From Fibrobacter sp. (GTDB lineage Bacteria > Fibrobacterota > Fibrobacteria > Fibrobacterales > Fibrobacteraceae): a stretch of DNA of 64,000 nt. The notes under the pieces were generated by a model, which saw only the letters and a list, made by a program, of their open reading frames with translations, searched no databases and was not told the origin of the DNA. Below, in pieces: positions 4,466 to 46,929 of the stretch. The stretch is from NCBI RefSeq assembly GCF_017551775.1, contig NZ_JAFZKX010000067.1, forward strand, positions 1-64,000, read 5' to 3'. How positions within the stretch are numbered: the stretch's first letter is position 1; every line of letters begins with the position of its first letter. The position numbers and the translations under genes are program-made.

Positions 4466-5680
4466 TTACTGGAGCAGATTTTCGGGGACGCATTCGGCCA
4501 TGGCCTCGTACGCCTTGGCGCTTGGGTGCAGGTGGTCTCCCGAGTCGAAACCGCCCGCGAATCGTTTCGGGTCGTCGTGCCCGCGCACGGCCATGTCGAA
4601 ATCTACGCAGCCGTCGAATTCCGGCGAGGTCCGCAGCCATGTATTGAATGCGATTCGGATGATGTCGCGGTTTTCGTTGTAGGTGCGCCAGCCGTATATG
4701 GGCAGGAGCGTGCCGCTGTATACCTTGAGCCCGAGCTTGCGCGCATGCTGAATGTAGAGCGTGCGCACCCCGTTGATGAGGTCATCTGCGGTGGGCATGT
4801 CGCTCCAGGGGCGGAACTTGTTGACTTCGACGCCGACCGGATGGATGATGTCGTTGATGCCGTGCTGCACGATTACAGTGCGGGCACCGGCGACGTTCAT
4901 TTCGATGGGGAATCGCGTGGCGCCCTTGAGGCCGTATGCCGCGTACGTGATGCAGCTGTATTCGCGGAGGATGCGCGTGCCGCTTACCGCGCGGCGGATG
5001 ATGGCGACGTTGTCGAAACCTTCTCGGGCGCAACGCAGCGTGAGGTAGTCGGGCCAGTCCTGAGCCGTGATGGAATCGCCGAAGCACACGAGCGCGAAGT
5101 TCTTCTCTTCGGTAAGGATGTCGACGGTATTGAGGAAGTAAATCCAGTTCGTTTTGCGCGTGAGGTCGTCGGGAAGGCTTGCCGCCTTCGCGAAGTTGCC
5201 GTAGCTGTACTTGCCACCGGAAAGCGGGCCCGTGATTGCCGTGCCTGCGTTCATCTGCGTGAAGTCTGCGAAGTAGAGGCTCACGTTGAAAGTTTCACCC
5301 GCGGTTACGTCGAATGCGATTTCGTCGCTCAGGATTTCTTCGCCCGCGGGGATTGTCCCGGAAGCGCTGCCGTTGAATGTGATGGCGGTCGGCGCATCTT
5401 GAGTCGGCGCATTTTTAGCCAGCGCAGCGCCTGTTTCGCCGGCAGCGGACTGCGCGCCGTTTATAGACTGCGCGGCATCTTTAGCGATATACGCCTCGCT
5501 GATGGTCACGGGTTCCGTGCCGGTGAGGTTCGAAAAATGGAACCGCAGCTTGTTGCCCGAAAAGCATGCGCGTATCGGGTAGCGCAGCGTTAAATCTTTT
5601 GCGTAGGTCGCTTCCTTGCGGTCGGTGATGGAGGTGGCGTTACCCCAGCAGGCCACCCATTTCGAAAACTTTTCTGGCAT
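4466..5680 (-). CDS. SGNH/GDSL-family hydrolase
   Basis: 404 residues from the ATG at 5680; longer versions would run into the divergent regulator gene. The first about 180 residues look like a beta-sandwich (SGNKLRFHFSNLTG). The SGNH hydrolase part follows: block I GDSIT with nucleophile Ser about 203, block III GIND, and block V DHLHPS with Asp about 382 and His about 385. The family includes lipases, carbohydrate acetyl-esterases and arylesterases; the substrate cannot be told here. No signal peptide is visible at this start. An Ala-rich stretch (residues about 68-99) is encoded by a tandem GGCGCAT-type repeat that looks inserted. It is divergent from an AraC-type regulator 46 nt away, which may control it. 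Confidence 0.85.
   Translation of the reverse strand: MPEKFSKWVACWGNATSITDRKEATYAKDLTLRYPIRACFSGNKLRFHFSNLTGTEPVTISEAYIAKDAAQSINGAQSAAGETGAALAKNAPTQDAPTAITFNGSASGTIPAGEEILSDEIAFDVTAGETFNVSLYFADFTQMNAGTAITGPLSGGKYSYGNFAKAASLPDDLTRKTNWIYFLNTVDILTEEKNFALVCFGDSITAQDWPDYLTLRCAREGFDNVAIIRRAVSGTRILREYSCITYAAYGLKGATRFPIEMNVAGARTVIVQHGINDIIHPVGVEVNKFRPWSDMPTADDLINGVRTLYIQHARKLGLKVYSGTLLPIYGWRTYNENRDIIRIAFNTWLRTSPEFDGCVDFDMAVRGHDDPKRFAGGFDSGDHLHPSAKAYEAMAECVPENLLQ
5384..5482. repeat. in-frame tandem GGCGCATTTTTAGCC-type repeat
   Basis: Imperfect copies follow one another: GGCGCATCTTGAGTC (5391-5405), GGCGCATTTTTAGCC (5406-5420), then more diverged GCGC...TTTA units to 5482. The stretch keeps the hydrolase frame open and adds about 30 Ala/Thr/Ser-rich residues. 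The same unit recurs in inverted orientation between genes at 54.98-55.05 kb. Confidence 0.65.
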
Positions 5681-5686
5681 GGCTAA

Positions 5687-5692
5687 AAAATA
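5687..5692 (-). promoter_or_regulatory. TATTTT box 6 nt before the start at 5680
   Basis: On the minus strand TATTTT is followed by six bases (TTAGCC) and then the ATG of the SGNH hydrolase. It supports the 5680 start as a leaderless transcript. The run of A/T makes it a weaker case than the TATATT examples. Confidence 0.35.
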
Positions 5693-5726
5693 ACTAATTT
5701 GGAACCGCTTTTCTAGATGGTGGTAA

Positions 5727-6392
5727 ATGTCCGAGATTTCGTACAGCAAGAAGAACGACAGGATTGAATGCGTCCGCTACAAGGACTGGCGAAAATCGTA
5801 CCCGCCGCACACGCATACGGGGCACTTGACCGTAGGCTACATCGAAGAGGGTTCGATTTGCCTGGTGATGAATGGCGTCACAGAAATCTACGGTGCTGGC
5901 GACAAGTTCCAGATTCCGCCCGACGTGCTTCACGAAATCAGGATGGTCGACGGCCAAAGTTATTCGATGGTCGTGTTGTGCATCGCGGTGGATGACGCTG
6001 CCAGCGGCGGTGCATTATCTGGTGCGCTGTCCGGCGCATTCGAAAGGGAATACGAAGATGCTGTCGCGCGCCTGAGCGAACTGCGCAAGAGCATCCTCGA
6101 AAATCCCGAGAACATTTACCTGATAGAACAGATGGCGCATGACGCGTGCATCAGCCCGTTCCACATGATTCGCGAATTCAAGAAGGCCTTCGGCCTCACG
6201 CCGCACCAGTTCCAGATGCAGTGCAAGGTCCGCAAGGCCCAAAAGCTGCTCGCCGAAAGGAGCGCGTCCGAAGTGACATTCGATGCCGGGTTTTACGACC
6301 AGAGCCACATGGACAGGTGCTTCAAAAAAGTAGTCGGGCTTTCGCCCAAAGAATACAAGAAGGCCGTAAAGCCGGCGACGGATCCCGATTGA
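5727..6392 (+). CDS. AraC-family transcriptional regulator
   Basis: 221 residues. An N-terminal cupin-type sensing domain contains PHTHTGHLTVGYIEEG (about residues 27-42), followed by the P-V-H-like turn IPPDVLHEI. The C-terminal half (about 130-218) is the AraC/XylS double helix-turn-helix, with ISPFHMIREFKKAFGLTPHQF and the second-HTH stretch ending LSPKEYKK. Such proteins sense a small ligand, often a sugar, and activate neighbouring genes; the divergent SGNH hydrolase is the obvious candidate target. Between the domains is a short Ala/Ser/Gly repeat (GALSGALSG) encoded by 12-nt direct repeats resembling the hydrolase insertion. A GGTGG ribosome site precedes the ATG. Confidence 0.9.
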   Translation: MSEISYSKKNDRIECVRYKDWRKSYPPHTHTGHLTVGYIEEGSICLVMNGVTEIYGAGDKFQIPPDVLHEIRMVDGQSYSMVVLCIAVDDAASGGALSGALSGAFEREYEDAVARLSELRKSILENPENIYLIEQMAHDACISPFHMIREFKKAFGLTPHQFQMQCKVRKAQKLLAERSASEVTFDAGFYDQSHMDRCFKKVVGLSPKEYKKAVKPATDPD

Positions 6393-16874: not shown

Positions 16875-17522
16875 TTATTGCACTTTTTTGACGAATTCTC
16901 GGCATACGGCCTCGGGATCGGGCTTGCCGAAGATGGCGGAACCCACCACGAACACGTTTGCGCCCGCTTCCTTGCAGTCGAGGATGTTGTCGAGCTTCAC
17001 GCCGCCGTCGATCTGGATGTCGAGTTCCGGCTTCATCTGGCGGAGCTCGCGAATCTTGTCGAGGCAGTACGGGATGAGGCTCTGGCCGCCGAATCCGGGG
17101 TTCACCGACATGATGAGCACCATGTCCACGATGTCGAGCACGTACTTGATGGCTTCGAGCGGGGTCGCCGGGTTGATGGCCACAGCGGGCTTCACGCCGA
17201 GTTCCCTGATCTGGTGCAGCAGGCGGTCGAGGTGGTTCGTGGTTTCGGCGTGCACGCTGATGATGCTGGCGCCTGCCTTCGCGAACTCGCCCACGTAGTT
17301 CTCGGGATTCTCGATCATCAGGTGGCAATCGAGCGGGAGGCTCGTGCCCTTGCCGATGCATGCCGAGATGCCCGGTCCGAAGCTGATATTTGGTACAAAG
17401 TGCCCGTCCATGATGTCGAGATGGACGAGACCCGCGCCGCCTTTTTCGATGGCCTTGACGCCGTCACCGAGTGTGAGGAAATTCGCGTTTAGAACGCTGG
17501 GGGCGATAATTTGCTTCAACAT
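16875..17522 (-). CDS. rpe: ribulose-phosphate 3-epimerase
   Basis: 215 residues from the ATG at 17522, matching the family length; a longer version would add a non-family tail. The enzyme interconverts ribulose-5-phosphate and xylulose-5-phosphate in the pentose phosphate pathway. Motifs follow the TIM-barrel order: APSVLNANF, HLDIMDGHFVPNISFG with the metal His/Asp, DCHLMIENPENY, MSVNPGFGGQ, QIDGGVKLDN and VGSAIFG. No ribosome site is clear; a TACCTT box lies 7 nt upstream. The 75 nt between it and the lipoprotein gene upstream in sequence hold no gene. Confidence 0.96.
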   Translation of the reverse strand: MLKQIIAPSVLNANFLTLGDGVKAIEKGGAGLVHLDIMDGHFVPNISFGPGISACIGKGTSLPLDCHLMIENPENYVGEFAKAGASIISVHAETTNHLDRLLHQIRELGVKPAVAINPATPLEAIKYVLDIVDMVLIMSVNPGFGGQSLIPYCLDKIRELRQMKPELDIQIDGGVKLDNILDCKEAGANVFVVGSAIFGKPDPEAVCREFVKKVQ

Positions 17523-17535: not shown

Positions 17536-17662
17536 GAAAAAAGCCGGCTCGGGCGTGCGCCGGTATCGGGAAAATCGATAATTAACGATATTATTTTATA
17601 TCTAGCCACGAAACTTATTTTTTACTAACTTTATCCGAGTTATTATTAGCAGGAGATGAAAA

Positions 17663-18058
17663 ATGGCTAAGACAACAACAAACAAGGCCGCCAAGGCCCC
17701 GGTGAAGAAGGCCGCCGCAAAGCCGGCTGCCGAAAAGAAGGCTTGCACCAAGGCTTGTGCAAAGCCCGCCGCCAAGAAGGCTGCCCCGAAGGCCGCTGCC
17801 GAGAAGAAGGCCCCGGCTCCGAAGGCTGCTGCGAAGAAGGTCACGGTTGAATTTATCGCCGATTGCCCGCTCGCAACGACCGTTTCTGTCGCCGGTACTT
17901 TCAACAACTGGGCTGTCGACAAGGACATGCTCAAGAAGGACAAGAAGACCGGTCTCTGGACTGCCAAGATGGCTCTCGCTGCTGGCGATTACGAATACAA
18001 GTTCGTGTGCGACGGCAAGAACTGGGACGCGGGCGACAACAAGATCAAGCACGTCTAA
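17663..18058 (+). CDS. histone-H1-like Lys/Ala tail fused to a CBM48-type domain
   Basis: 131 residues. The first about 58 are almost only Lys, Ala, Pro and Glu, with AAK/KAPAKK-type repeats like the tails of histone H1 and bacterial H1-like proteins, plus three Cys. The rest (about 59-131) is a single glycogen-binding early-set domain (CBM48/AMPK type): VTVEFIADCPLATTVSVAGTFNNW, then TGLWTAKMALAAGDYEYKFVCDG with the sugar-contact Trp and Phe residues, ending KIKHV. No signal peptide is present, so it should act in the cytoplasm. It may sit on stored glycogen, or link glycogen to DNA or to acidic partners. AGGAG lies 8 nt before the ATG and a terminator follows, so it is probably a single-gene transcript. 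Confidence 0.85.
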   Translation: MAKTTTNKAAKAPVKKAAAKPAAEKKACTKACAKPAAKKAAPKAAAEKKAPAPKAAAKKVTVEFIADCPLATTVSVAGTFNNWAVDKDMLKKDKKTGLWTAKMALAAGDYEYKFVCDGKNWDAGDNKIKHV

Positions 18059-18082
18059 TCGCGCTTTTTGCAATAACGGATG

Positions 18083-18108
18083 CGCCGGGCCAATCGCTCG
18101 GCGTTTTT
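18083..18108 (+). terminator. terminator after the H1/CBM48 gene
   Basis: CGCCG...CGGCG stem with an inner GC/GC pair, followed by TTTTT, 25 nt after the stop codon. Confidence 0.6.
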
Positions 18109-18202
18109 CATTTTGTGTAAAGAGTGGCGCGGGCCGGCAAATCGTGCGGGCCCTTCCTGAAATTCTCTAGTAACTGGGAACTAAGAACTTGGAACTATTT
18201 TC

Positions 18203-18215: not shown

Positions 18216-19475
18216 ATGAATTATTCTATCCCTCAAGAAGTTTTTGTCAAGGCTGCCGAACAGTACGGCACCCCGCTCTGGATTTACGACCGCGCCACCA
18301 TCGAGAAGTGCGTGAAAGATGTCCAGGTTTTTGACACCGTTCGTTTTGCCCAGAAGGCATGCCCGAACCTCTCCGTGGTTTCGCTCATCCGCAAGCTCGG
18401 CTGCGTCGTCGACGCCGTCTCTGCCGGTGAAATCGTCCGCGCCCTCAAGGCCGGATTCAAGGGCGGCCAGCAGAAGGGCAAGGCTCCCGAGATTGTCTAC
18501 ACCGCCGATATCTTCGACAAGGATGCCCTCGAGCTCGTGAAGGAACACAACATCGCCGTGAACGTGGGTTCGCCGGACATGATCCAGCAGCTCGCCGATT
18601 TCGGCGTGAAGTCCGAACTTACCATCCGTGTGAACCCGGGCTTCGGCCACGGCCATTCCCGCAAGACCAACACCGGTGGCGACCTTTCCAAGCACGGCAT
18701 TTGGCACGAACAGATCAAGGACTGCATCAAGCTCGCGCAGGCGAACGGCATGTGGATTACCGGCCTGCACATGCACATCGGTTCCGGCACGGACTTCGAA
18801 CACCTCGCGCAAGTTTGCGACGCCATGGTCGATGCTAGCCGCCGCCTGGGCAGCCATCTCCGCACCATCAGTGCAGGGGGCGGCCTCCCGATTCCGTACC
18901 ACGAAGAGGAAAAAGGCAACCGCATCGACGTGAACGCCTACTACAAGCTGTGGGATGACGCCCGCAAAAAAATCCAGCAGAGCATCGGCCACGAGGTTCA
19001 CCTGGAAGTCGAACCGGGCCGTTACTTGGTGGCCGAGAGTGGTTACCTGATGGCTGAAATCCGCGCGGTCAAGAAGCAGGGCGACAACCTGTTCTACCTG
19101 GTGGACGCCGGCTTTACCGACCTGGTGCGCCCGAGTTTCTACGGCAGCTACCACGGCATTTCCATCATCGCCCGCGACGGTCGCGAACTGAACGAGACGG
19201 TCGATGCAGTGGTGGCAGGCCCGCTATGCGAATCCGGTGACGTGTTCACTCAGGAAGAAGGTGGCTTCGTCGTGACGCGCAAGCTCCCGAAGGCGAAGGT
19301 CGGCGACTTGTTGATTCTCCATGACGCGGGTGCCTACGGCGCCGCCATGAGCAGCAACTACAATAGCCGTCGTTACGCTGCCGAAACGATGTACACGAAC
19401 GGCGAATTGAAGGTAGTGCGCGAACGCCAGAGCTTCGAACAATTATTGCAGAACGACCGCATTATCGATTTATAA
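18216..19475 (+). CDS. lysA: diaminopimelate decarboxylase
   Basis: 419 residues from the ATG at 18216. The enzyme removes CO2 from meso-diaminopimelate to give lysine, using pyridoxal phosphate. The PLP lysine is K47 in RFAQKACPN; the family often has Y-A-x-K-A-N here, so RFAQKAC is slightly unusual. Other motifs: HMHIGSGTDF, the phosphate-binding SAGGGLPIPY, EPGRYLVAESG, GPLCESGDVF with the active-site Cys, and HDAGAYGAAMSSNYNSR. It is a fold-type III enzyme, normally dimeric and cytoplasmic. The gene stands alone and is not in a lysine operon. Confidence 0.95.
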   Translation: MNYSIPQEVFVKAAEQYGTPLWIYDRATIEKCVKDVQVFDTVRFAQKACPNLSVVSLIRKLGCVVDAVSAGEIVRALKAGFKGGQQKGKAPEIVYTADIFDKDALELVKEHNIAVNVGSPDMIQQLADFGVKSELTIRVNPGFGHGHSRKTNTGGDLSKHGIWHEQIKDCIKLAQANGMWITGLHMHIGSGTDFEHLAQVCDAMVDASRRLGSHLRTISAGGGLPIPYHEEEKGNRIDVNAYYKLWDDARKKIQQSIGHEVHLEVEPGRYLVAESGYLMAEIRAVKKQGDNLFYLVDAGFTDLVRPSFYGSYHGISIIARDGRELNETVDAVVAGPLCESGDVFTQEEGGFVVTRKLPKAKVGDLLILHDAGAYGAAMSSNYNSRRYAAETMYTNGELKVVRERQSFEQLLQNDRIIDL

Positions 19476-35973: not shown

Positions 35974-38900
35974 ATGAAGCGATTGGTTGTATTTCTTTTT
36001 TTGATGGCTTTCCCTTCTATATCTTGGTCCATCCCCAAGCCGATGGAATCCATCGAAAACTACAATGTGCTTTTGGTGCATGGCGCATATGGATCTGATA
36101 AAGGCATTTCTGAGAATACGGACTATGTCTCTGCTTATGAGGATACGACTTTTTTGGGTAACGCTACGCTTGGGGATTACACATCGAATAATCGAATCAC
36201 GAAGTGGATTGCTGAAAAAATATTTGAAGAAGATGTGAGTGAAAAGAATTACGAGAATGCTCGTAATTCCTATGTGTACAACTGGCGCTCATTCACAAAT
36301 CCGGCGAATACTTCGCTGAATAACGCTCATGAAATGGGGGACCGAACATGGAATGTCCTAACAAATGGCTCCTCTAAATTCGGAAAGCGAAGATCTCTGT
36401 TTGAAGAAGCGCAAGAAGTGAAAGCCCGGTTTGTTATAGATCCAAATGATACTTCAAAGGACTTATATGGCCAAGAAGCTCTTGATTCTATACGCAATCA
36501 TTCCGATTTTTATCGTCAACTACCTTCCCGCTATATTCTTATCGGCCACTCAATGGGTGGCGTTGTATCCCGCGAGTATGTGCAAGGTAACTTCTACAAT
36601 GGTGATGTAGACAAGATTATAACGCTTGATAGCCCCCATGAAGGAACAGGGGCGATGAATATGACAGTAAAAATGAATGCAACGAGTGACATTTGGGGAC
36701 ATTTTGGAGACAACCTCAAATCCACTGTACTTTCCGTTGTTCCGCGGATGCTTGTGTTGGGGAATCTCGGCGATATTGGTTTTGCCATCTCTTCCATTTC
36801 CTCGAATTTTCTGAAGAAAGAAATTGGAGATCTTCTTGCGACAGCGTTTGCCCCTGAGTGTTATGTTGAAAGTGATTCTCTAGTCCACTATGTGGATCCG
36901 AAACAGACCGGTTTTGGGACCATAGACTCCTTGAATCATTTGCATTATGAAGCGGATTCCATGCCCATGATCAGAATTTTATCCGGACGACATGGAATGA
37001 CCTTTTCGGATCCAGGCGATCTTGATGAAGGTTTTGTTGGCGGAATACGCACTTTTATTCCTGATTACGCAGCAATGCCATATTTGAACTATAATGCCCA
37101 ACTGGAAGGATCGGGCGATATGTCTGCAAGGTATGTCAATGCTTTGACTTCGTTTATGATGGGCTATGCGGGTATTCCTGTGCAAAAAAATGGTAGTAGC
37201 ATAGTTCCCGATTCTTCTAGCAATGGTTCTGGAGTTAATGTTCTGAATGATCCTATGGTTGATGTTGAGCGGGCGTATTTCAATGCGGCTCCGCGTGCCT
37301 CAGGCACTCTAGGTGATGTTGCTGTAATTATTGAATCCATAACTAATCAAGTGAGAGATTTGGACCTTACATTGGGTTATATATGCCCTCCGTGTGCAAG
37401 CGCCACAAAAGTTGCACTCGGCTTTGCTGGCGCAGAACAGGCAGCACCATCCATAATCCCTGCTGCCATAGCAGGATTTTTTGATTTGAAGGAGTCTCAT
37501 CAAATACCATTGTATCGAATTAATTTGGATACAATGAAGGCCGATGCCAATACGTATTCCCTGCAAACAGGCGCATCAACTTACACCCCATACCTTATGG
37601 AAGATTTCCTTTACGAGCGCCCGTTCGTAAACCTTGCGTTGAACGATATCCGTACATTGAATATGCTTTCCCCATTGAGTCCGGATTCTATCGAAAAGTC
37701 GCCTTTGAACCGCAATTGCTATTATATTGGTTCGAAATCCGGTAAGACATGTGCCATCGGCTTGTTCAGTCGTAAAGACACCTTGAATTCTTTCCAGCAG
37801 GAACAGAACCTTTCCGCCTTGACTCCGCTCCTTTTCAAGTCGGAATCGGATTGGTCCAAGATGGGCGTAAAGGTTGACCGTTGGGAAATGGTGGATGGTT
37901 TGCATCCCGATGGGTCGTTGAACAAGAAAGGGGTCCCTATCCGCCATGTGGAACGTTACGTGGTTCCCGACAATATCGTGGCGCAAGACTTCATTGAACA
38001 GTATTCGTTCGTCATCGACGACTTGATGCCGCACCGCATGCGTAAAATCTATATGAACTTCAATTTCCAACAGGAACTCGCTTGGGAATGCGATATAGAA
38101 AAGGATCCTGCTGATAATACTGCCTGTAAGGTATATAAGAGAAAAGTCGGGACGCCATGGCCGGCAGAGCCGCAGATGACTGTTCGGCACCCTGTGTTAA
38201 AAAATGGACGGTTTGATTTTAATGCGAAGGATTATTTTAACGAAAGATTCGGTGATAACCTTTCCGCTATACAGAAGGGAAACCAGAATACAATCATCAT
38301 ATCTCTCATAAACAAGATTGGACTTTCGAATACGCAGCGATTCAGCTATCTGTTCGGGACGGCCAGGGATCCATTTCAGCCTAGCTGGCCATTACAGGAT
38401 ATTGTAGTGAACAAGATAGAAGGGTTTGGTGGAACCGCGAGCTATCAAGGTCTTGGCATTGTGGGTGCGAAGGATTCTATTTTCCGTTGCTTGGATAAAG
38501 ATTGCCGCTCGACGAATTCCGTTACCTCGAGGAGTGCGATGACCATGTCGGTTACGCAGGCGGATAATCATTTTGCTTCGGGCCAGGTTGTGAACAATCC
38601 GGCGGAGGGCCAGTTCTTTTGGGCCTTCAATGCGATAGTCGATAACAAGGGTTCGCTCGATAGCAACGATGTGAGCCTGGTATCCTTTGTTGTGGATACG
38701 ACAGCCCCGAAGTTCTCATTGTGGACGGACAATCACAGCGTCAACCCGGATAGTTCCGTATTTTTAGCCCGTGTAAATGTAAATGACGATGGTTCTGCAA
38801 CTTCAGGGAAAAAGGATGCCGCCGACATTCGTGCCATGCGCTGGATACTGGAACGGAAGAACGGCAGTGTATTTAACAAGGTTGCGGACCTGCCTTATCT

Positions 38901-41900
38901 TTACGATGTCGCATCGAAAAATTTCGCCATAGGCTGGGATGGTGTTGACAAGAAATCGTTGACTGACGGCGTTTACCGTGTGAAGGCGACAGCGATAGAT
39001 TACGCCCTGCCGAACATGGATGCCTATGACGCGGTGAACGCCCTTTCCGAAAAGATTATTGGTAAGACCGTAAGCGGAACGGATTGGGACAATGTCATCC
39101 TCCACCATAAGCTGAATGTGGCCCGTGATTCTGTGGAATTTCTCGTGGATAGGACTGCGCCGTCTCTGCGAGGGATTGATCTGGGGGTAGTGCCGGTAGA
39201 ACTGGGAAAAAATCCCAAATATGCATTCCTGCCGAAACCTGCACGTCAGGGGAACCAGTACGTGTATGTTTCTAAGGACAGTCTCTTGAACATATCGTAT
39301 ACTGTCTATGAAAAGCAGGAAGACCATAGAGCAACGCCTGTATTCATCAACTGGAGCCTCACGCATATGCCCGACAGCAATGCGGTTGAACATGCCGGAG
39401 ATTCAATATGGATTACTAATGATACGATTTCGGGAATGTGGGGTGAAAAAGCGGAGCTTTTGCTGAAGGATGGAGAATATCGTATATCCGCCGTCGTTCG
39501 CGATCAGGCCAAGAATGTGTCGACTCCGACGACGGTGCCGAAGAGATTACGTATTGACCGCACTGCACCGCAGGTTGAAAATGTCATAAGCACGCTTCCT
39601 GTGTATGATTATGCGTCTAACAAGCCGTTCAAAGCTTCCGTCACGGTGTCTGAAGGCGGAGATGTTGCCGTCAATCGCACCGGGATGAGGTGCAGCTACA
39701 GGGTTATCGGCGGGGGATCCGATAATACCTGGCGCGAGATTTCCGATTCCGATTTGCATTCAGGAACGCATGCGTTCAATGTGGACGTGAATTTGATAGG
39801 GAGAAATGACGGAAAACGCTATCTCGAAACTGCTTGCGTTGACATGGTAGGGAATGTCGGCGTGGCGACAAGTTTGTTCCATGCTGGCAAACGGCATCCG
39901 AATATCGTCTTCCCGACAGAATCGGATTATTTGCAAATGCCGGTTATTCCGATTGTGGGCATTGCCCCGCCTGATTTTGGCGATGCAGAAAATACCGCTG
40001 TTTATCGCCTGAGGTATAGGGAAGAAAATTCTAGGGATTGGAAAACGGACAAAATCATGACTGTCGCTTCTAACCGTTCGAAGGACAAAGCGAACATATC
40101 GAAGATTGCACAGAGCAATGAGGGGGTGTTGGGGTATTTCTACCGCGACTCCATCTACGACAAGCGATATGTTATAGAGTTGGGAGTCAAGCCTTGTGAA
40201 TATTGTAGCTGGCGTACGGATTCTGTTCGCGTGACTTTGGGTAAAATCGTAGCAGACAGTATAAGGCCCGCTGTTGCGTTCAAGATATCGAAAACGTCCA
40301 TGGTTATCGGGAGGGATTCTGTAGATATGTCGCTCCGTGTGACAGGGAATGCTTCGGGGACGTACATGTTGCGTGTTTATGCAGAAGACGAGAGTGGTGC
40401 CGGTATTTTTGATAAGTCGGTTGAGCGTGCGTGGGCGAATCCGTATTATGGCGAGCCATACGATGTGACTGCCGGTTTGACTTATGATGCGACAAAGCCC
40501 CCTGTGGGAGTGTGGTTTTATCAGGTTGATAGCCTGTATCACTTGAGGTGGTCTGGCTTGCCGGATACTTCTGATTTGCGCGTTTTGTTCCTTGGCTCCA
40601 CTTTTGGTGAAACGTGCTTGGCGTTGAGAGGGGAAAATATTATGAATCTCAACAAGGGGTGCCGCGTTGAACCGCTAAATAATCATTCCTTTGATGTTGC
40701 CTCGGAATATTTGAACGATTATCCGCTGCTGGTTTTGCCGACGTATACTGATAGTGTCATGATTCTTTCGGGAGAATCGGGGCATGTCGTAATGGAATCT
40801 AAAGGCTCGTTCAGGGTTGTCGGAAAAAATGTTGGCATGGTGGGTTCGCATAATATTCCGGTGTATTTTGGATCTAGCGAAATGGCTGGCCTGCCTATTT
40901 CGGGACAAAGCGTCGGTGCAGATGATGTGAATGTGCTGAAGAATGGATGGAATATACATCCGAACAAATTCAGTTTGTCGTTTACCTGGGATGGATCCAT
41001 GGATTCGAAGTCTTTCCCGGCTGAAGGAACGATGAAAGTTTACGCCGAAGTGACCAGCCTTGATGGAGGAAATGCTTTTGCAGACGTGAAAATGCAGGAA
41101 ATCGCCCTGAGTCCGGATACCTTGAGGATAGCTTTGGACAGCTTGCTTCCAAAATTCTCGTTGAGGGATCAAATTGGTTCGGTGATAACGCTGCGAGCTG
41201 TAAGTATACCCTATGGCATTCTTTATAGGGATGCACTTGTGACCATTAAAATTAAAAATTCTTCGGGCATATATGTTAGGACTTTGCTGAAGGATGAATT
41301 TGTCAAGGCGCACCCGGATGAACAGGCTCATTCGGTAATTTGGAATGGAAAGAATGACGAAGGCAATCCCGTTGACGTCGGCACTTATACAGTCGAAATT
41401 TCTGCACGTCCGGCTGCAAATGCTAATGACACCACAGAAATAAAGCAGGCCTTTGCTATGTTGCCGGTGACCGCTGGTAGAACACTAATCGACATGACTC
41501 CAGGAGATCGGTCACATACGGATTCTGTAAGTATCTATGTTTCTGAAGCGGTAACTGATTCGAGTTCAGGGAGAGTGATCAACAGGTACGAACCTATTGC
41601 CGACTTCATTGTGGATGCAGAATTGAGGGGTAAGTATCTCCCTGAGAACGCTCGCACGGCGGAACTCGTTACGGAGTTCACCGGAACGCAGCACCCGCTG
41701 CGTTTTTTACCGGAACGTTTTAGCTTAGACATCAAGAGGCAAAGGGAACATTTGAAATTGGTTGCCGTTTATTGGGTGGATCGATGGATTCAATCATGTT
41801 CAGATATTTCCTGTGATACGACAGGTTCTAAAAAAAATGAACCGCTTGTTGACGTCCAGGAATTCAATTTCAATGCGCACCACTTGCAGGATACTATAAA

Positions 41901-44900
41901 TGTTAATTATGATGCGCCGGACACATACGGCTATTTGGGAATAAAGGATTTGCAATTGTATGGTGAACAAACAGGATTCCACATGTTTGTTATTTCTTGG
42001 AAGGATTATGCGCAGTGGAGGGAAAATAACGTTTGGGAAAGTAATCCTGAGTTTTTCCTGAAAATGAAGGAGGATTTAGGTGAAAATATCTTATGGGATA
42101 TCTCTAATGCGGGTGTAGATGAAGTTGTTATCCCAGCTCCCAGCATGGGTGGGTACATACCGTTGTTCCCGCAAGATCTGAAGTCTTGCGGACCGGATGG
42201 TAACCCCTTTATAGTGGAACTTGTCGGAAATTCTGAGAGCAATTTTTATGACAACAAAGGAAAAATAAAACCGGATAAATGTGAAAACGAGCGCTACAGG
42301 ACACTGAATTTCAACATTGTTCTATCGATTCCTTCTGTTTACTGGAATGCAGACATCGATTGTGATAACCTTGTGAACCGAACTGTCCACTTTGGTTCGG
42401 ATAATGAGTTGCTTTATGATGAGTCTAGTGGATATTTCCATACGCTTGCGGCAAAGAAAGCGAATTCAAGTAGGGCGGTAAATTTATTTGATGGGTCGCA
42501 TTGGCTACGTGAATCGGCTTATGGTTTTTTGACTCCGTTCGAGGTGCAGCATTTGCCGTTCTTTAGTGTTAATGATTTTAATGAGGAAAATCTATTCCGC
42601 TTCCCAGATGAGTATAACGGTTATGCCCAAAAATCTCGATTTACATTGAAATTTGGAATGGATCAGAACGATGCTCTATATAGAAGTCGGCACTTTGTTG
42701 CACACGTGTTCGCTCCGCTGGCGGGGTATCCGCTAAGCCTAACGAATAATGGAGACAGCTTGGTGACTGAGTACATGGATGCTGGTGAGATAGATTTTTA
42801 TGTCAGCATGAACAAGACTTATGGTGCCGTACTTGCTGAAAATGCCGATAAACCTGATACGGTCGTATATCCTGCAAAGGGTGTAAAACCGGCGAATAAG
42901 GAAGAAGGTAAATATTACCTGCTTGGTTCAAAAATACATCATTACTATAATGACTATAGCGATAGTGCCTGGTTTAGGTTGTTTACCTTGGGCGGGAATT
43001 CGGCAAGCTATTTCAAGAATCTTTCCAATTCAGGCGCATCTTCTGAAAATTTCTACAAAATACCTAATTCGCCAAATGATCCGGATTCGTTGAATTTGTT
43101 GATTCCTGATATGTCAAAGATGACGACAGACAATACTCTTATCAGGCGCTTGTCTCAGGATGTGTTTTTTGATCCAGATTCCTATGACGAGAGTACGAAT
43201 AAATTTAGTGTCAATGTGGCACTGCCGGCTCCGATAAGCGGTGGTATTGAAGTGAAGGATACGACATACCTTAGGGTCGATGGTCTCCCGACTGTACAGA
43301 GCAGTTTTGCCAATGATACGCTCTATATAGATGCGGTTGATTGGGCACAGAATGTGCGCTACCGCCGTTCCCTGGATTCTACGTTCCAGTTGCCGGAACG
43401 ATCCAGTGCCGTAGAACTGCCGTTGAGCCATCTGTACCGATATCAAAGCGATGTGACGAGTAGGACGTTCTCCGATAGCAGCCTGTATTTTGGCGAAGCG
43501 ACCTCGAAGGAATGGACGCGAAACAGGTGGATTAAGGATGTCGATGTCATAGCATCGAGATTGACGCATCTGGATGATTCGGAACATTCCCATCTAAATG
43601 CTGTCAGGAATGCAGGTACATCGTCGAGCCTGAATATTCAGTACAGAAATGAAATCAACGAAAATCGGCCTTTGGAGTTAGTTGAGTTGCGGGCGAATTT
43701 GGTTCGTGGCAAATATCGTCTGCAGTATTTGAAAGATTCGGTGTACTATACGATTGTTGATACGGTCATTGAAACAAATGGCAATTACAGGCTTGCCTGG
43801 TTCAATGTGAATAGATTGCAGGGAAATACCCAGTTCCTTTTGACATGGGCCAATGATACGACCGAAGAAAAATATAGTTGCAGCCATTATAACTTGGTTG
43901 TAGGAAAACTTGTCAAGAAAAATACGCAGGGCACAGTTTCTTCTTTGTTTGGGGAACTTTCTGTTTCGTTCCCTGAAGGCGCCCTTAATACAAACGATGA
44001 TTTTACGGTTCGGACAACTGGTGCTGACAAATATGATTTCAGTGTTTTCAATGGTATGCCTATAACAGGGCCCATCATGGAAGTGCTTCCGTCAATGACG
44101 TTCCATAATAATGCCTTGCCGCGTATACAAATAAAAATATCCAAGTCCGAAATGGTTAATATGAAGGTCACGCCGAGTACATTGAAACTTTACAAGGTTG
44201 ACTTTGCCAAAAAGATGTTTGTCCCATTGGACAAGGTCCTGTACGGCTATCTAGATAAAGACGGGCATGCAGCGGTTGCCAATGGGTTCGATACGGCGAA
44301 ATGCGAAACTTGGAATGATTCTACATGTTATCCGGGTAATGATGATTTGTGGGAATATATCTTGATTTCTGGCGTGACAAAGACATTCTCGATTTTTGCC
44401 GCGATTGATTCAAGATTGGTTGAAAGTTCTGGTTTTGATCTGGAAATTCTGCCTGTTGTTGCGACTACGCCGGAACGCGATATCCGAATAAATGGTTTGG
44501 CTAATTTTGACCTGTATGTCGATAATGATTCCCTGTGGAGTGACAGTAACGATATAACTCCGGTAAAGCTTTTGCCGTATACTTTAAACGCTGACGGGAT
44601 TGTGCATGTGCAGTTGCCAAGACGCGGGACAGGGATAGATACGAACTATGTATTTGTCATTGCTAGGAACGATACCGCTCAATTGCCTTTAGCTCCTGCC
44701 GTTGCCCGCGCATTGACTGTCCCTACTGAATTTGCGTGTTCTGTTCCGTCTGATTCCGTATGGCTTGGCCTTGATAACGGCTACATGGCGTATGGAGCGA
44801 CTTGTAACCAGCCTGGCAATGGAACGCTCTCGTTGTACTTGAATAATAAACTTGTGACGGAAATACGTTCTGAAATTCCGGATACCATTATTTACGATGG

Positions 44901-46929
44901 CTCGAGAAAGATAGGGTCGTCTGTCGTGGGAAAGATTGGCAAGGGCGTGTATGAATCGCGTTATTTGGGAATGTCTGTTCTGGGGAACGAGATGCAGATG
45001 GTTGGGCCGAAGGTTTATACTGATTCTGCCCGTCCTAAAGTATCTCTCTGGAATGTCGCAGATTCCTCGGATGTCCTGAGCAGAATCTTTGTGGTTTCTG
45101 CGAAGATTGAGGATTCTGAATCGGGAATTGCCAAGGTTGAAGTCCGTCCGACATTAGGCTCTGTGCCGCTTAAGGCGGTTATGGTACAGCCCGATTCTAA
45201 TGGAATGATATCGGCTGCAATTCGGTTGAGTCGTAAGCAACTGTCAAATTGCGTTGGATGTAATCTCGCGATTACCATGCGAACGGAAGATTATGGCCAT
45301 AACTATGAAGAAGAGACCTACATGTCCCAGAGCCTCTATCCTTATCCGAAATCGCTGGCATTGTGGTACCCTGCAAAGGAAGGCATTGGATGGGTTTCTC
45401 GAGAAATGCTTGGAACGCAGCATGATTTGAATTTGTCAATGTACAAGCCTTGGCTTAGCAATATCGGCCTGTATTTCTATCGAGACAGGGATAGGGCGGT
45501 TGGCAACGGGAATGTCTATATTGGAACTTCCAATTCGTATGCATTTGAAGCTCGTGTGAACTTCGGCTATCCTCAAGACAGTGAATGGCGTCGCGTTATG
45601 GGCTTTTCTGGTGCTGACCTTGATATGGAAATCCAAGTCAGGAATCGCGATTTGCGTCTAGTAGAACAGGGCCGTGGTTGGGTCGCAGAGAATGTGCTGC
45701 CTCAAGAAAAGGCGTGGAGCCATGTTGTTGTCTCTGTAGATGCTGACAATGTTAATTTCTATGTAGATGGAAATTTGGTGGCGACAAAAGTATCGGGTAT
45801 TACTGCGAACCGCGAATTCAATGGAATATTCTCGATAGGTGAAAGTTCGACCATGGAAAATTTTGTCGGTCATATTGCGGATGTCCGTTTTTATCTGTCT
45901 GCCTTGAGCGACGAACAAGTGATGGAGTTGTCGAAGCCGGTTTCGGACGAGGGCGAAGAAGCTCAGTTGATAATCGTTAATGTGAAAGATATGGACATTA
46001 CAAGCGGGTTCAATCGTCTGTTTACCTGCTCGGTTGCCGGCAATAATTTCTTCCGTTCGACGGGTGCGAATGCGAAATTGAATATGTCGGTTGATGTTGC
46101 CCATGCTGGAAAATACAACCTTGTGCTTTATGCCCGTTCCGCAAAATTGAATGGAGCCGAAGTAGAGTTCGGAGGCTCATCAAAACAGAAAGGGACGATA
46201 CCCTTGGCTTCTGTATGGAAGGCTTATATGGTTCCTGATGTCGCTCTTGATCTCAGTTCGGGATTGCAGAATCTGGAATTGTCTGTACCTGCCGGGGTCG
46301 ATATCGCTGGCTTGGCCTTGGCTACGGAGAGTATCCCTGCCTCGGATATTGCATGGAATGTGACGGATGATGACGGAATAACGCCGATGCAATCTGCCAA
46401 AGTCAAGACGTTTGTGCGTTATGAAGATTTTGCCAACACGGCGATGTTGCGCCCTCGTATTCGTATTGAGAATATATCCGGCGAAGTGATTAATGGTTTC
46501 TCTGTACGATATTATTTCCGCGGAGAAGCACCTTCAATGTGTCAGACATCAGCGTTTTTCCCGCAAGATGGTTCTGCACTATCAGTTCATTCGGAAAGTA
46601 ATAATACTGGATATGTTGAATGGAAATTCCCGGATGTCGTGATTCAGGAGAATGGAACGCCGTTTGCTGGCGCTGGTCCGCATTTTGGGTTGAATACCAT
46701 TGGTTGGGATAACTGGTATTCAGACGATGATCCGTCTTTCGTCCCAAATGCAGCTCATAGCTTTGTCGAAGACAAGGGAATAATAGTTCTCGATAATGAT
46801 AATAATCTGATAGGAGGCTCTTGTGCTGAGATGGAGGATGAAATCGAGGATTCTGGGAATAACGGCTGGATATTGACATATGGAATTAACTTTGGTACGC
46901 CTGCAAAAAAGACGTGGGTAAAGGATTAA
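35974..46929 (+). CDS. giant secreted protein: N-terminal lipase fold, many beta-sandwich modules, C-terminal lectin/CBM-like modules
   Basis: 3651 residues. The signal peptide ends near SISWS (about 19). An alpha/beta-hydrolase follows: VLLVHGAYG (32-40, oxyanion HG) and GHSMGG (191-196, nucleophile Ser193), as in PGAP1-like lipases; His340 in SGRHGM is a candidate catalytic His. Ig-like modules with VDTTAPKF, VDRTAPSL and IDRTAPQV start at about 905, 1054 and 1190. A FlgD-type Ig module with VIWNGKNDEGNPVDVGTYTV is at about 1736-1813. Another Ig-like module begins at about 3015. A laminin-G/ConA-like domain lies at about 3128-3323 (SHVVVSVDADNVNFYVDG), then a galactose-binding/CBM-like domain (about 3331-3453), and a CBM3-like end (RIRIENISGEVINGFSVRYYF). 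It is probably a surface or released enzyme-adhesin. The start has AAGG upstream. No frameshift was seen. Substrate unknown. Confidence 0.8.
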   Translation: MKRLVVFLFLMAFPSISWSIPKPMESIENYNVLLVHGAYGSDKGISENTDYVSAYEDTTFLGNATLGDYTSNNRITKWIAEKIFEEDVSEKNYENARNSYVYNWRSFTNPANTSLNNAHEMGDRTWNVLTNGSSKFGKRRSLFEEAQEVKARFVIDPNDTSKDLYGQEALDSIRNHSDFYRQLPSRYILIGHSMGGVVSREYVQGNFYNGDVDKIITLDSPHEGTGAMNMTVKMNATSDIWGHFGDNLKSTVLSVVPRMLVLGNLGDIGFAISSISSNFLKKEIGDLLATAFAPECYVESDSLVHYVDPKQTGFGTIDSLNHLHYEADSMPMIRILSGRHGMTFSDPGDLDEGFVGGIRTFIPDYAAMPYLNYNAQLEGSGDMSARYVNALTSFMMGYAGIPVQKNGSSIVPDSSSNGSGVNVLNDPMVDVERAYFNAAPRASGTLGDVAVIIESITNQVRDLDLTLGYICPPCASATKVALGFAGAEQAAPSIIPAAIAGFFDLKESHQIPLYRINLDTMKADANTYSLQTGASTYTPYLMEDFLYERPFVNLALNDIRTLNMLSPLSPDSIEKSPLNRNCYYIGSKSGKTCAIGLFSRKDTLNSFQQEQNLSALTPLLFKSESDWSKMGVKVDRWEMVDGLHPDGSLNKKGVPIRHVERYVVPDNIVAQDFIEQYSFVIDDLMPHRMRKIYMNFNFQQELAWECDIEKDPADNTACKVYKRKVGTPWPAEPQMTVRHPVLKNGRFDFNAKDYFNERFGDNLSAIQKGNQNTIIISLINKIGLSNTQRFSYLFGTARDPFQPSWPLQDIVVNKIEGFGGTASYQGLGIVGAKDSIFRCLDKDCRSTNSVTSRSAMTMSVTQADNHFASGQVVNNPAEGQFFWAFNAIVDNKGSLDSNDVSLVSFVVDTTAPKFSLWTDNHSVNPDSSVFLARVNVNDDGSATSGKKDAADIRAMRWILERKNGSVFNKVADLPYLYDVASKNFAIGWDGVDKKSLTDGVYRVKATAIDYALPNMDAYDAVNALSEKIIGKTVSGTDWDNVILHHKLNVARDSVEFLVDRTAPSLRGIDLGVVPVELGKNPKYAFLPKPARQGNQYVYVSKDSLLNISYTVYEKQEDHRATPVFINWSLTHMPDSNAVEHAGDSIWITNDTISGMWGEKAELLLKDGEYRISAVVRDQAKNVSTPTTVPKRLRIDRTAPQVENVISTLPVYDYASNKPFKASVTVSEGGDVAVNRTGMRCSYRVIGGGSDNTWREISDSDLHSGTHAFNVDVNLIGRNDGKRYLETACVDMVGNVGVATSLFHAGKRHPNIVFPTESDYLQMPVIPIVGIAPPDFGDAENTAVYRLRYREENSRDWKTDKIMTVASNRSKDKANISKIAQSNEGVLGYFYRDSIYDKRYVIELGVKPCEYCSWRTDSVRVTLGKIVADSIRPAVAFKISKTSMVIGRDSVDMSLRVTGNASGTYMLRVYAEDESGAGIFDKSVERAWANPYYGEPYDVTAGLTYDATKPPVGVWFYQVDSLYHLRWSGLPDTSDLRVLFLGSTFGETCLALRGENIMNLNKGCRVEPLNNHSFDVASEYLNDYPLLVLPTYTDSVMILSGESGHVVMESKGSFRVVGKNVGMVGSHNIPVYFGSSEMAGLPISGQSVGADDVNVLKNGWNIHPNKFSLSFTWDGSMDSKSFPAEGTMKVYAEVTSLDGGNAFADVKMQEIALSPDTLRIALDSLLPKFSLRDQIGSVITLRAVSIPYGILYRDALVTIKIKNSSGIYVRTLLKDEFVKAHPDEQAHSVIWNGKNDEGNPVDVGTYTVEISARPAANANDTTEIKQAFAMLPVTAGRTLIDMTPGDRSHTDSVSIYVSEAVTDSSSGRVINRYEPIADFIVDAELRGKYLPENARTAELVTEFTGTQHPLRFLPERFSLDIKRQREHLKLVAVYWVDRWIQSCSDISCDTTGSKKNEPLVDVQEFNFNAHHLQDTINVNYDAPDTYGYLGIKDLQLYGEQTGFHMFVISWKDYAQWRENNVWESNPEFFLKMKEDLGENILWDISNAGVDEVVIPAPSMGGYIPLFPQDLKSCGPDGNPFIVELVGNSESNFYDNKGKIKPDKCENERYRTLNFNIVLSIPSVYWNADIDCDNLVNRTVHFGSDNELLYDESSGYFHTLAAKKANSSRAVNLFDGSHWLRESAYGFLTPFEVQHLPFFSVNDFNEENLFRFPDEYNGYAQKSRFTLKFGMDQNDALYRSRHFVAHVFAPLAGYPLSLTNNGDSLVTEYMDAGEIDFYVSMNKTYGAVLAENADKPDTVVYPAKGVKPANKEEGKYYLLGSKIHHYYNDYSDSAWFRLFTLGGNSASYFKNLSNSGASSENFYKIPNSPNDPDSLNLLIPDMSKMTTDNTLIRRLSQDVFFDPDSYDESTNKFSVNVALPAPISGGIEVKDTTYLRVDGLPTVQSSFANDTLYIDAVDWAQNVRYRRSLDSTFQLPERSSAVELPLSHLYRYQSDVTSRTFSDSSLYFGEATSKEWTRNRWIKDVDVIASRLTHLDDSEHSHLNAVRNAGTSSSLNIQYRNEINENRPLELVELRANLVRGKYRLQYLKDSVYYTIVDTVIETNGNYRLAWFNVNRLQGNTQFLLTWANDTTEEKYSCSHYNLVVGKLVKKNTQGTVSSLFGELSVSFPEGALNTNDDFTVRTTGADKYDFSVFNGMPITGPIMEVLPSMTFHNNALPRIQIKISKSEMVNMKVTPSTLKLYKVDFAKKMFVPLDKVLYGYLDKDGHAAVANGFDTAKCETWNDSTCYPGNDDLWEYILISGVTKTFSIFAAIDSRLVESSGFDLEILPVVATTPERDIRINGLANFDLYVDNDSLWSDSNDITPVKLLPYTLNADGIVHVQLPRRGTGIDTNYVFVIARNDTAQLPLAPAVARALTVPTEFACSVPSDSVWLGLDNGYMAYGATCNQPGNGTLSLYLNNKLVTEIRSEIPDTIIYDGSRKIGSSVVGKIGKGVYESRYLGMSVLGNEMQMVGPKVYTDSARPKVSLWNVADSSDVLSRIFVVSAKIEDSESGIAKVEVRPTLGSVPLKAVMVQPDSNGMISAAIRLSRKQLSNCVGCNLAITMRTEDYGHNYEEETYMSQSLYPYPKSLALWYPAKEGIGWVSREMLGTQHDLNLSMYKPWLSNIGLYFYRDRDRAVGNGNVYIGTSNSYAFEARVNFGYPQDSEWRRVMGFSGADLDMEIQVRNRDLRLVEQGRGWVAENVLPQEKAWSHVVVSVDADNVNFYVDGNLVATKVSGITANREFNGIFSIGESSTMENFVGHIADVRFYLSALSDEQVMELSKPVSDEGEEAQLIIVNVKDMDITSGFNRLFTCSVAGNNFFRSTGANAKLNMSVDVAHAGKYNLVLYARSAKLNGAEVEFGGSSKQKGTIPLASVWKAYMVPDVALDLSSGLQNLELSVPAGVDIAGLALATESIPASDIAWNVTDDDGITPMQSAKVKTFVRYEDFANTAMLRPRIRIENISGEVINGFSVRYYFRGEAPSMCQTSAFFPQDGSALSVHSESNNTGYVEWKFPDVVIQENGTPFAGAGPHFGLNTIGWDNWYSDDDPSFVPNAAHSFVEDKGIIVLDNDNNLIGGSCAEMEDEIEDSGNNGWILTYGINFGTPAKKTWVKD

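Follow-up and report, generated by a model that had tools for sequence, protein, structure and literature searches.

The gene at positions 17663-18058 (+ strand) of the analysed stretch of Fibrobacter sp. DNA (64,000 nucleotides, here called the window) encodes a protein of 131 amino acids in which a histone-H1-like tail is joined to an AMPK-type CBM48 domain. The reading we favour, with a probability of about 0.5, is that this protein tethers glycogen to the nucleoid, working like PhaF, PhaM, AlgP and MLDS. It is favoured because the protein is built like the known one-protein tethers between granule and nucleoid, with the granule module swapped for a glycogen-binding module. The protein is small, is expected to be cytoplasmic and is probably abundant. 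Its C-terminal AMPK-type CBM48 domain is predicted to bind glycogen, and its histone-H1-like Lys/Ala/Pro tail, at the N-terminus, to bind DNA of any sequence. Glycogen granules would thereby be tethered to the nucleoid and spread along it, with a possible effect on their spacing and inheritance. The protein would then be the glycogen counterpart of PhaF and PhaM for PHA granules, AlgP for polyphosphate and MLDS for lipid droplets.

The gene and its product

The reading frame is uninterrupted and is backed by Pfam matches and by orthologs. The two-part design described in the first-pass annotation, a Lys/Ala/Pro tail of 58 residues followed by a CBM48 domain in one 131-residue protein, was confirmed. 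A ribosome-binding site, AGGAG (17651-17655, +), can be read directly from the sequence 7 nt 5' of the ATG, and a similar GGAG or AGGAG lies at the same spacing 5' of essentially all orthologs, in line with the strong ribosome site first proposed. The proposal that the gene has its own terminator also stands, as a pattern match only: a stem of 9 pairs, 7 of them G-C, followed by a T-rich run resembles an intrinsic terminator 3' of the gene (18082-18114, +; stem and T-run at 18082-18104). The N-terminus, MAKTTTNK, has on direct reading no visible signal peptide, so a cytoplasmic location is expected. Antisense ORFs overlie the bases of 17663-18058. An antisense or chance ORF was ruled out, codon usage, orthologs, position-specific GC and selection all favouring the + frame.

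The Rfam scan of the 64-kb window gave no match and neither did the check for plasmid carriage. Elsewhere in the window, 35974-46929 (+) is a single uninterrupted reading frame of 3,651 residues with a signal-peptide-like start. The assembly carries the gene for ribosomal protein S3 twice, on contigs C20 and C58, which suggests a small strain mixture or contamination.

The carbohydrate-binding domain

The protein belongs to the AMPK1_CBM/CBM48 domain family. Residues 59-131 (17837-18055, +), which carry a net charge of +1, score 37.3 bits against the Pfam model AMPK1_CBM (curated cut-off 26.8, E 3e-9) and 28.9 bits against CBM_48 (curated cut-off 22.4, E 1.5e-6). A profile search against solved structures returned the glycogen-binding domain of AMPK beta2 at 6e-17. 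The AlphaFold2 model is a six-strand early-set beta-sandwich with pLDDT values of ~84-91 over most of the domain. Foldseek placed it ~2 Å from the AMPK beta glycogen-binding domain structures 1z0m and 4yef (1.9-2.0 Å for 1z0m), with TM scores on the target of 0.69-0.73 (0.73 for 1z0m), and the SEX4 glucan phosphatase and branching enzymes were also among the closest folds. The median dN/dS of the domain is ~0.15, indicating purifying selection.

The AMPK residues W100, K126, W133 and N150 are critical carbohydrate contacts (PMC4032982), and glycogen binding by AMPK is abolished by W100G and K126Q (PMC6274970). In alignments with AMPK beta1 these correspond to W83 (17909-17911, +), K113 (17999-18001, +), W121 (18023-18025, +) and N126 (18038-18040, +). 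The equivalents of W100, K126 and N150 are invariant in 68/68 orthologs and that of W133 is kept in 66/68, with Tyr in the other two.

The domain had been described as complete. It does pass both Pfam cut-offs, but it is a compact AMPK-type domain, ~13 residues short before the last strand. This segment is missing in Fibrobacter and the nearest genera and retained in other genera of the Fibrobacteraceae. It covers the equivalents of AMPK L146-T148, a loop next to the glucan site that is a feature of AMPK and is not required for membership of the domain family. Because the region is lost, glucan affinity may be weaker, or affinity and preference altered, in the Fibrobacter domain. The reading of the protein as a glycogen binder with a polycation is nevertheless well supported by sequence, since the two-part design is old and selected and the glucan-contact residues are intact.

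The histone-H1-like tail

Residues 1-58 (17663-17836, +) are set apart by their composition and by low confidence in the AlphaFold2 model (pLDDT ~48-60 over most of the tail). Lys, Ala and Pro make up 81% of the tail (29%, 41% and 10%, respectively), the net charge is +15 and neither Arg nor any aromatic residue is present. The motif KPAA occurs twice, and PAAKKA and PVKKA once each. Among the 37 proteins of the window (18,310 residues), the best 58-residue stretch has 83% K+A+P here versus 45% in the next-best protein. The likeness to histone H1 is compositional only, the curated H1-like model hist_H1_lk_Burk giving 18.1 bits against a cut-off of 80. That the protein is one of several H1-tailed proteins in its genome was rejected, as a search with the tail matched only its own gene at E <= 0.1, a search in which composition filters may hide further tails.

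A long basic tail is kept in all 68 distinct Fibrobacterota orthologs. Its length varies from 34 to 133 aa (median 73), its charge from +10 to +36 (median +19), its K+A+P content from 50 to 87% (median 80%) and its Lys content from 22 to 40%. Arg is absent in 65/68, no tail contains an aromatic residue, and 55/68 have KPAA or PAKKA. With the low pLDDT of the tail, these features match those of the long, disordered H1-like tails of bacteria. Between closely related tails synonymous differences exceed non-synonymous ones, e.g. pN 0.06 versus pS 0.40. Since composition is constant despite the change in length and synonymous differences are in excess, the tail has the look of a polymer-like ligand site rather than of a decaying sequence. 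Lys-rich tails are able to bind any polyanion. Tails of this kind bind DNA in MLDS, AlgP, PhaF and PhaM. DNA is the ligand that we predict here; other suitable ligands would be RNA, polyphosphate and acidic proteins. Cys pairs are scattered in the tails, CTKAC here, CAKC in one genus (g4) and CKC in others, at positions that are not conserved.

Conservation, gene order and expression

Of the 151 Fibrobacterota genomes, 99 gave a match to the full-length protein as query. The domain model matched 60/60 Fibrobacteraceae genomes that were at least 90% complete, and 56/56 when contamination was also limited to at most 5%. The search for the same fusion in other genomes, which the first-pass annotation had put forward, thus found it in every near-complete genome of the family. 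The gene is single-copy in all 60 but one, the exception being an assembly with 8% listed contamination. It is a core gene of the Fibrobacteraceae, and this status together with its conserved location rules out a horizontally acquired oddity.

The neighbours are a divergent rpe, encoding ribulose-phosphate 3-epimerase (16875-17522, -; Pfam 1e-76), and downstream a lysA-like gene for a PLP-dependent decarboxylase (18216-19475, +; Pfam), both assignments being backed by synteny. No operon with a glycogen gene was seen at this locus. Most of the Fibrobacteraceae, as well as the sister family within the order, show the arrangement rpe, CBM gene, lysA-like gene. Some genera other than Fibrobacter have an 8-nt overlap between the CBM gene and the beginning of the lysA-like gene. 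In Fibrobacter there is mostly a gap of 72 nt to 4 kb with T-runs between them, or they are not found side by side. Because Fibrobacter itself mostly separates the two genes, the adjacency of lysA is ancestral gene order with no sign of function, and a functional lysA link was ruled out as the main idea. The link to rpe is likewise one of order only. In several genera (loci L088-L096 and L103) the CBM stop overlaps or nearly touches the lysA-like start, and the Lys-rich tail may there share an mRNA with a probable lysine-biosynthesis enzyme.

The codon adaptation index, relative to a ribosomal-protein set, is 0.78 for the whole gene and 0.83 for the domain alone. This is rank 2 of the ~40 ORFs of the window, where ribosomal proteins reach 0.5-0.8; glgB has 0.65. 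High expression is likely, since the index is level with that of ribosomal proteins.

Glycogen metabolism and relatives of the domain

Fibrobacter stores glycogen and continuously turns it over during cellulose digestion. The genome encodes GlgC (contig C97, over the cut-off) and a full GlgB of 738 aa. In F. succinogenes the glycogen synthases and the phosphorylase are highly expressed whatever the substrate or growth rate (PMC6204037). Rosette-shaped glycogen (alpha) particles have been reported for this species, and a 2021 review calls the glycogen-associated proteins of prokaryotes an untouched topic (PMC8116748). A glgC match is present in each of the 151 Fibrobacterota genomes (above the cut-off in 112), also in those without the tail-CBM gene, so co-occurrence of the two genes is uninformative. 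Some relatives within the class have glgC and lack the tail-CBM gene, so glycogen can be stored without the tail-CBM protein.

Stand-alone AMPK1_CBM proteins also occur in Latescibacterota, Omnitrophota, Lentisphaerota and Verrucomicrobiota. They too have a single CBM in ~90-100 aa, often behind a short basic leader, but among the matches listed these leaders are ~6-17 aa long, against 34-133 aa for the tails of Fibrobacterota, and the rpe/lysA context is absent. The long tail could plausibly have started out as such a leader, a point on which the domain tree, with its small number of columns, gives no resolution.

Other designs around the same domain were seen within the Fibrobacterota. A class relative of family f5 (L125, ~5194-5934) encodes a protein of ~245 aa with apolipoprotein/LEA-like amphipathic helices followed by AMPK1_CBM (Pfam Apolipoprotein 4e-4, below the cut-off; AMPK1_CBM 1e-16), which again resembles a granule coat and has a front half like that of a phasin. 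In other families of the phylum (L126, from ~5004, and L127, on the minus strand) AMPK1_CBM is preceded by a Cys-rich segment of anti-sigma-like character and by what is likely a transmembrane helix, a layout that suggests transmembrane glucan sensing.

Alternative readings

Several points count against a glycogen-nucleoid tether: the gene is not adjacent to glycogen genes, the loss of the L146-T148 region may weaken or alter glucan binding, some relatives within the class keep glgC without the tail-CBM gene, and the tail may have a polyanion other than DNA as its ligand. The most serious alternative, which we consider unlikely, is a coat or assembly factor of glycogen granules whose tail acts off the chromosome. 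The CBM would sit on the granule and the tail would bind RNA or ribosomes, polyphosphate or acidic enzymes, or govern the packing of rosettes. The broad affinity of Lys-rich tails for polyanions would allow this, as would the basic leaders of ~6-17 aa on the same domain in other phyla, whose length does not suffice for an H1-like mode. A coat would also fit the rosettes reported in F. succinogenes and the description of prokaryotic glycogen-associated proteins as unstudied (PMC8116748). However, the make-up of the tail is that of DNA-tethering tails, with KPAA and PAKKA and with Lys nearly excluding Arg, and not that of a generic basic patch. Less probable again is a nucleoid-associated protein that carries a sensor of glucan. 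Here the tail would reside on DNA and the CBM would read the level of alpha-glucan, so that glycogen pulls the protein off the chromosome or alters gene expression, as it modulates AMPK. The parts list is identical and the codon usage is that of an abundant protein, and AMPK is inhibited by glycogen via such a CBM (PMC6274970). Yet there is no DNA-recognition fold in the protein, only the low-confidence tail, nor any conserved link to regulators.

We give a little less credence still to a domain that does not bind alpha-glucan and serves as a small scaffold, which would make the protein a nucleoid protein of H1-like type capped by an early-set fold. The absence of ~13 residues ahead of the last strand in Fibrobacter and its nearest genera could be taken this way, and early-set folds also occur in non-glucan roles, such as a weak match to a T9SS plug. 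Against it, all four glucan-contact residues are kept family-wide while other positions diverge. A role linked to lysine, in which the tail serves as a sink for lysine or, through its translation, senses the supply of lysine on behalf of lysA, seems to us very improbable indeed. The 8 nt overlap of cbm stop and lysA-like start in some genera and a tail of 22-40% Lys would suit it, but in Fibrobacter the tail persists where the genes are mostly 72 nt to 4 kb apart with T-runs or not found adjacent, and the conserved CBM is left without an explanation.

Comparison with known tethers and with AMPK

The first-pass annotation knew of no described protein of this design. For glycogen this holds in the literature searched, but the design is known with other granule-binding modules. 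In open-licence literature no paper was found that combines CBM48 with a histone-H1-like segment, and nothing relevant was found for glycogen, nucleoid and tethering together. Glycogen is absent from a 2025 review of how organelles are positioned (PMC13052382). As far as found in this literature, granule-nucleoid tethering is known for PHA, polyphosphate and lipid droplets and there is no case for glycogen. We put slightly below even the chance that the protein is the first glycogen-to-nucleoid tether and among the first structural proteins dedicated to glycogen granules in prokaryotes, core in the Fibrobacteraceae. The question opened is whether bacterial glycogen granules are organised, and by what, and it is answerable via one small gene. 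If the tether reading is true, the positioning of granules by H1-like tails has evolved in bacteria for one more storage polymer.

Both modules of a tether, a putative granule-binding domain and an H1-like tail, are recognised by sequence in the 131-aa protein. PhaM, PhaF and PhaH have one end on PHB granules and the other on DNA (PMC13052382). PhaF of Pseudomonas putida and PhaM of Ralstonia eutropha / Cupriavidus necator likewise combine a storage-granule module and a histone-like tail in one protein, and their tail binds DNA non-specifically; the proteins organise the position of PHA granules. In PhaF an amphipathic helix, and not a CBM, serves as the granule module, and in PhaF and PhaM the tail is C-terminal and the cargo a polyester, while here the tail is N-terminal and the predicted cargo is glycogen. 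AlgP of Pseudomonas aeruginosa positions polyphosphate granules and its KPAA-type tail is required for their spacing (PMC9239181). It differs from the Fibrobacterota proteins, whose tails carry +10 to +36 and are joined to a CBM48, in its helical N-terminal domain, net charge of +55 and polyphosphate cargo. MLDS of Rhodococcus jostii also has a Lys-rich tail and a separate granule-targeting domain. Its PAKKA tail binds DNA by gel shift and this activity is gone on replacement of Lys by Glu (PMC5504291). Unlike the present protein, it has a lipid-droplet targeting domain, a C-terminal tail and neutral lipid as cargo. The 131-aa protein is not a member of the PhaF, PhaM, AlgP or MLDS families: it has no phasin domain (no phasin model among the Pfam or NCBIfam matches at E <= 1), its tail is at the opposite end and its score against the H1-like model is far below the cut-off. 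It has no granule-binding domain in common with PhaF or AlgP. With the glycogen-binding domain of AMPK beta it has the fold and the four glucan-contact residues in common. AMPK beta is part of a kinase complex, whereas the Fibrobacter protein has no kinase complex, lacks the L146-T148 segment and carries an H1-like tail.
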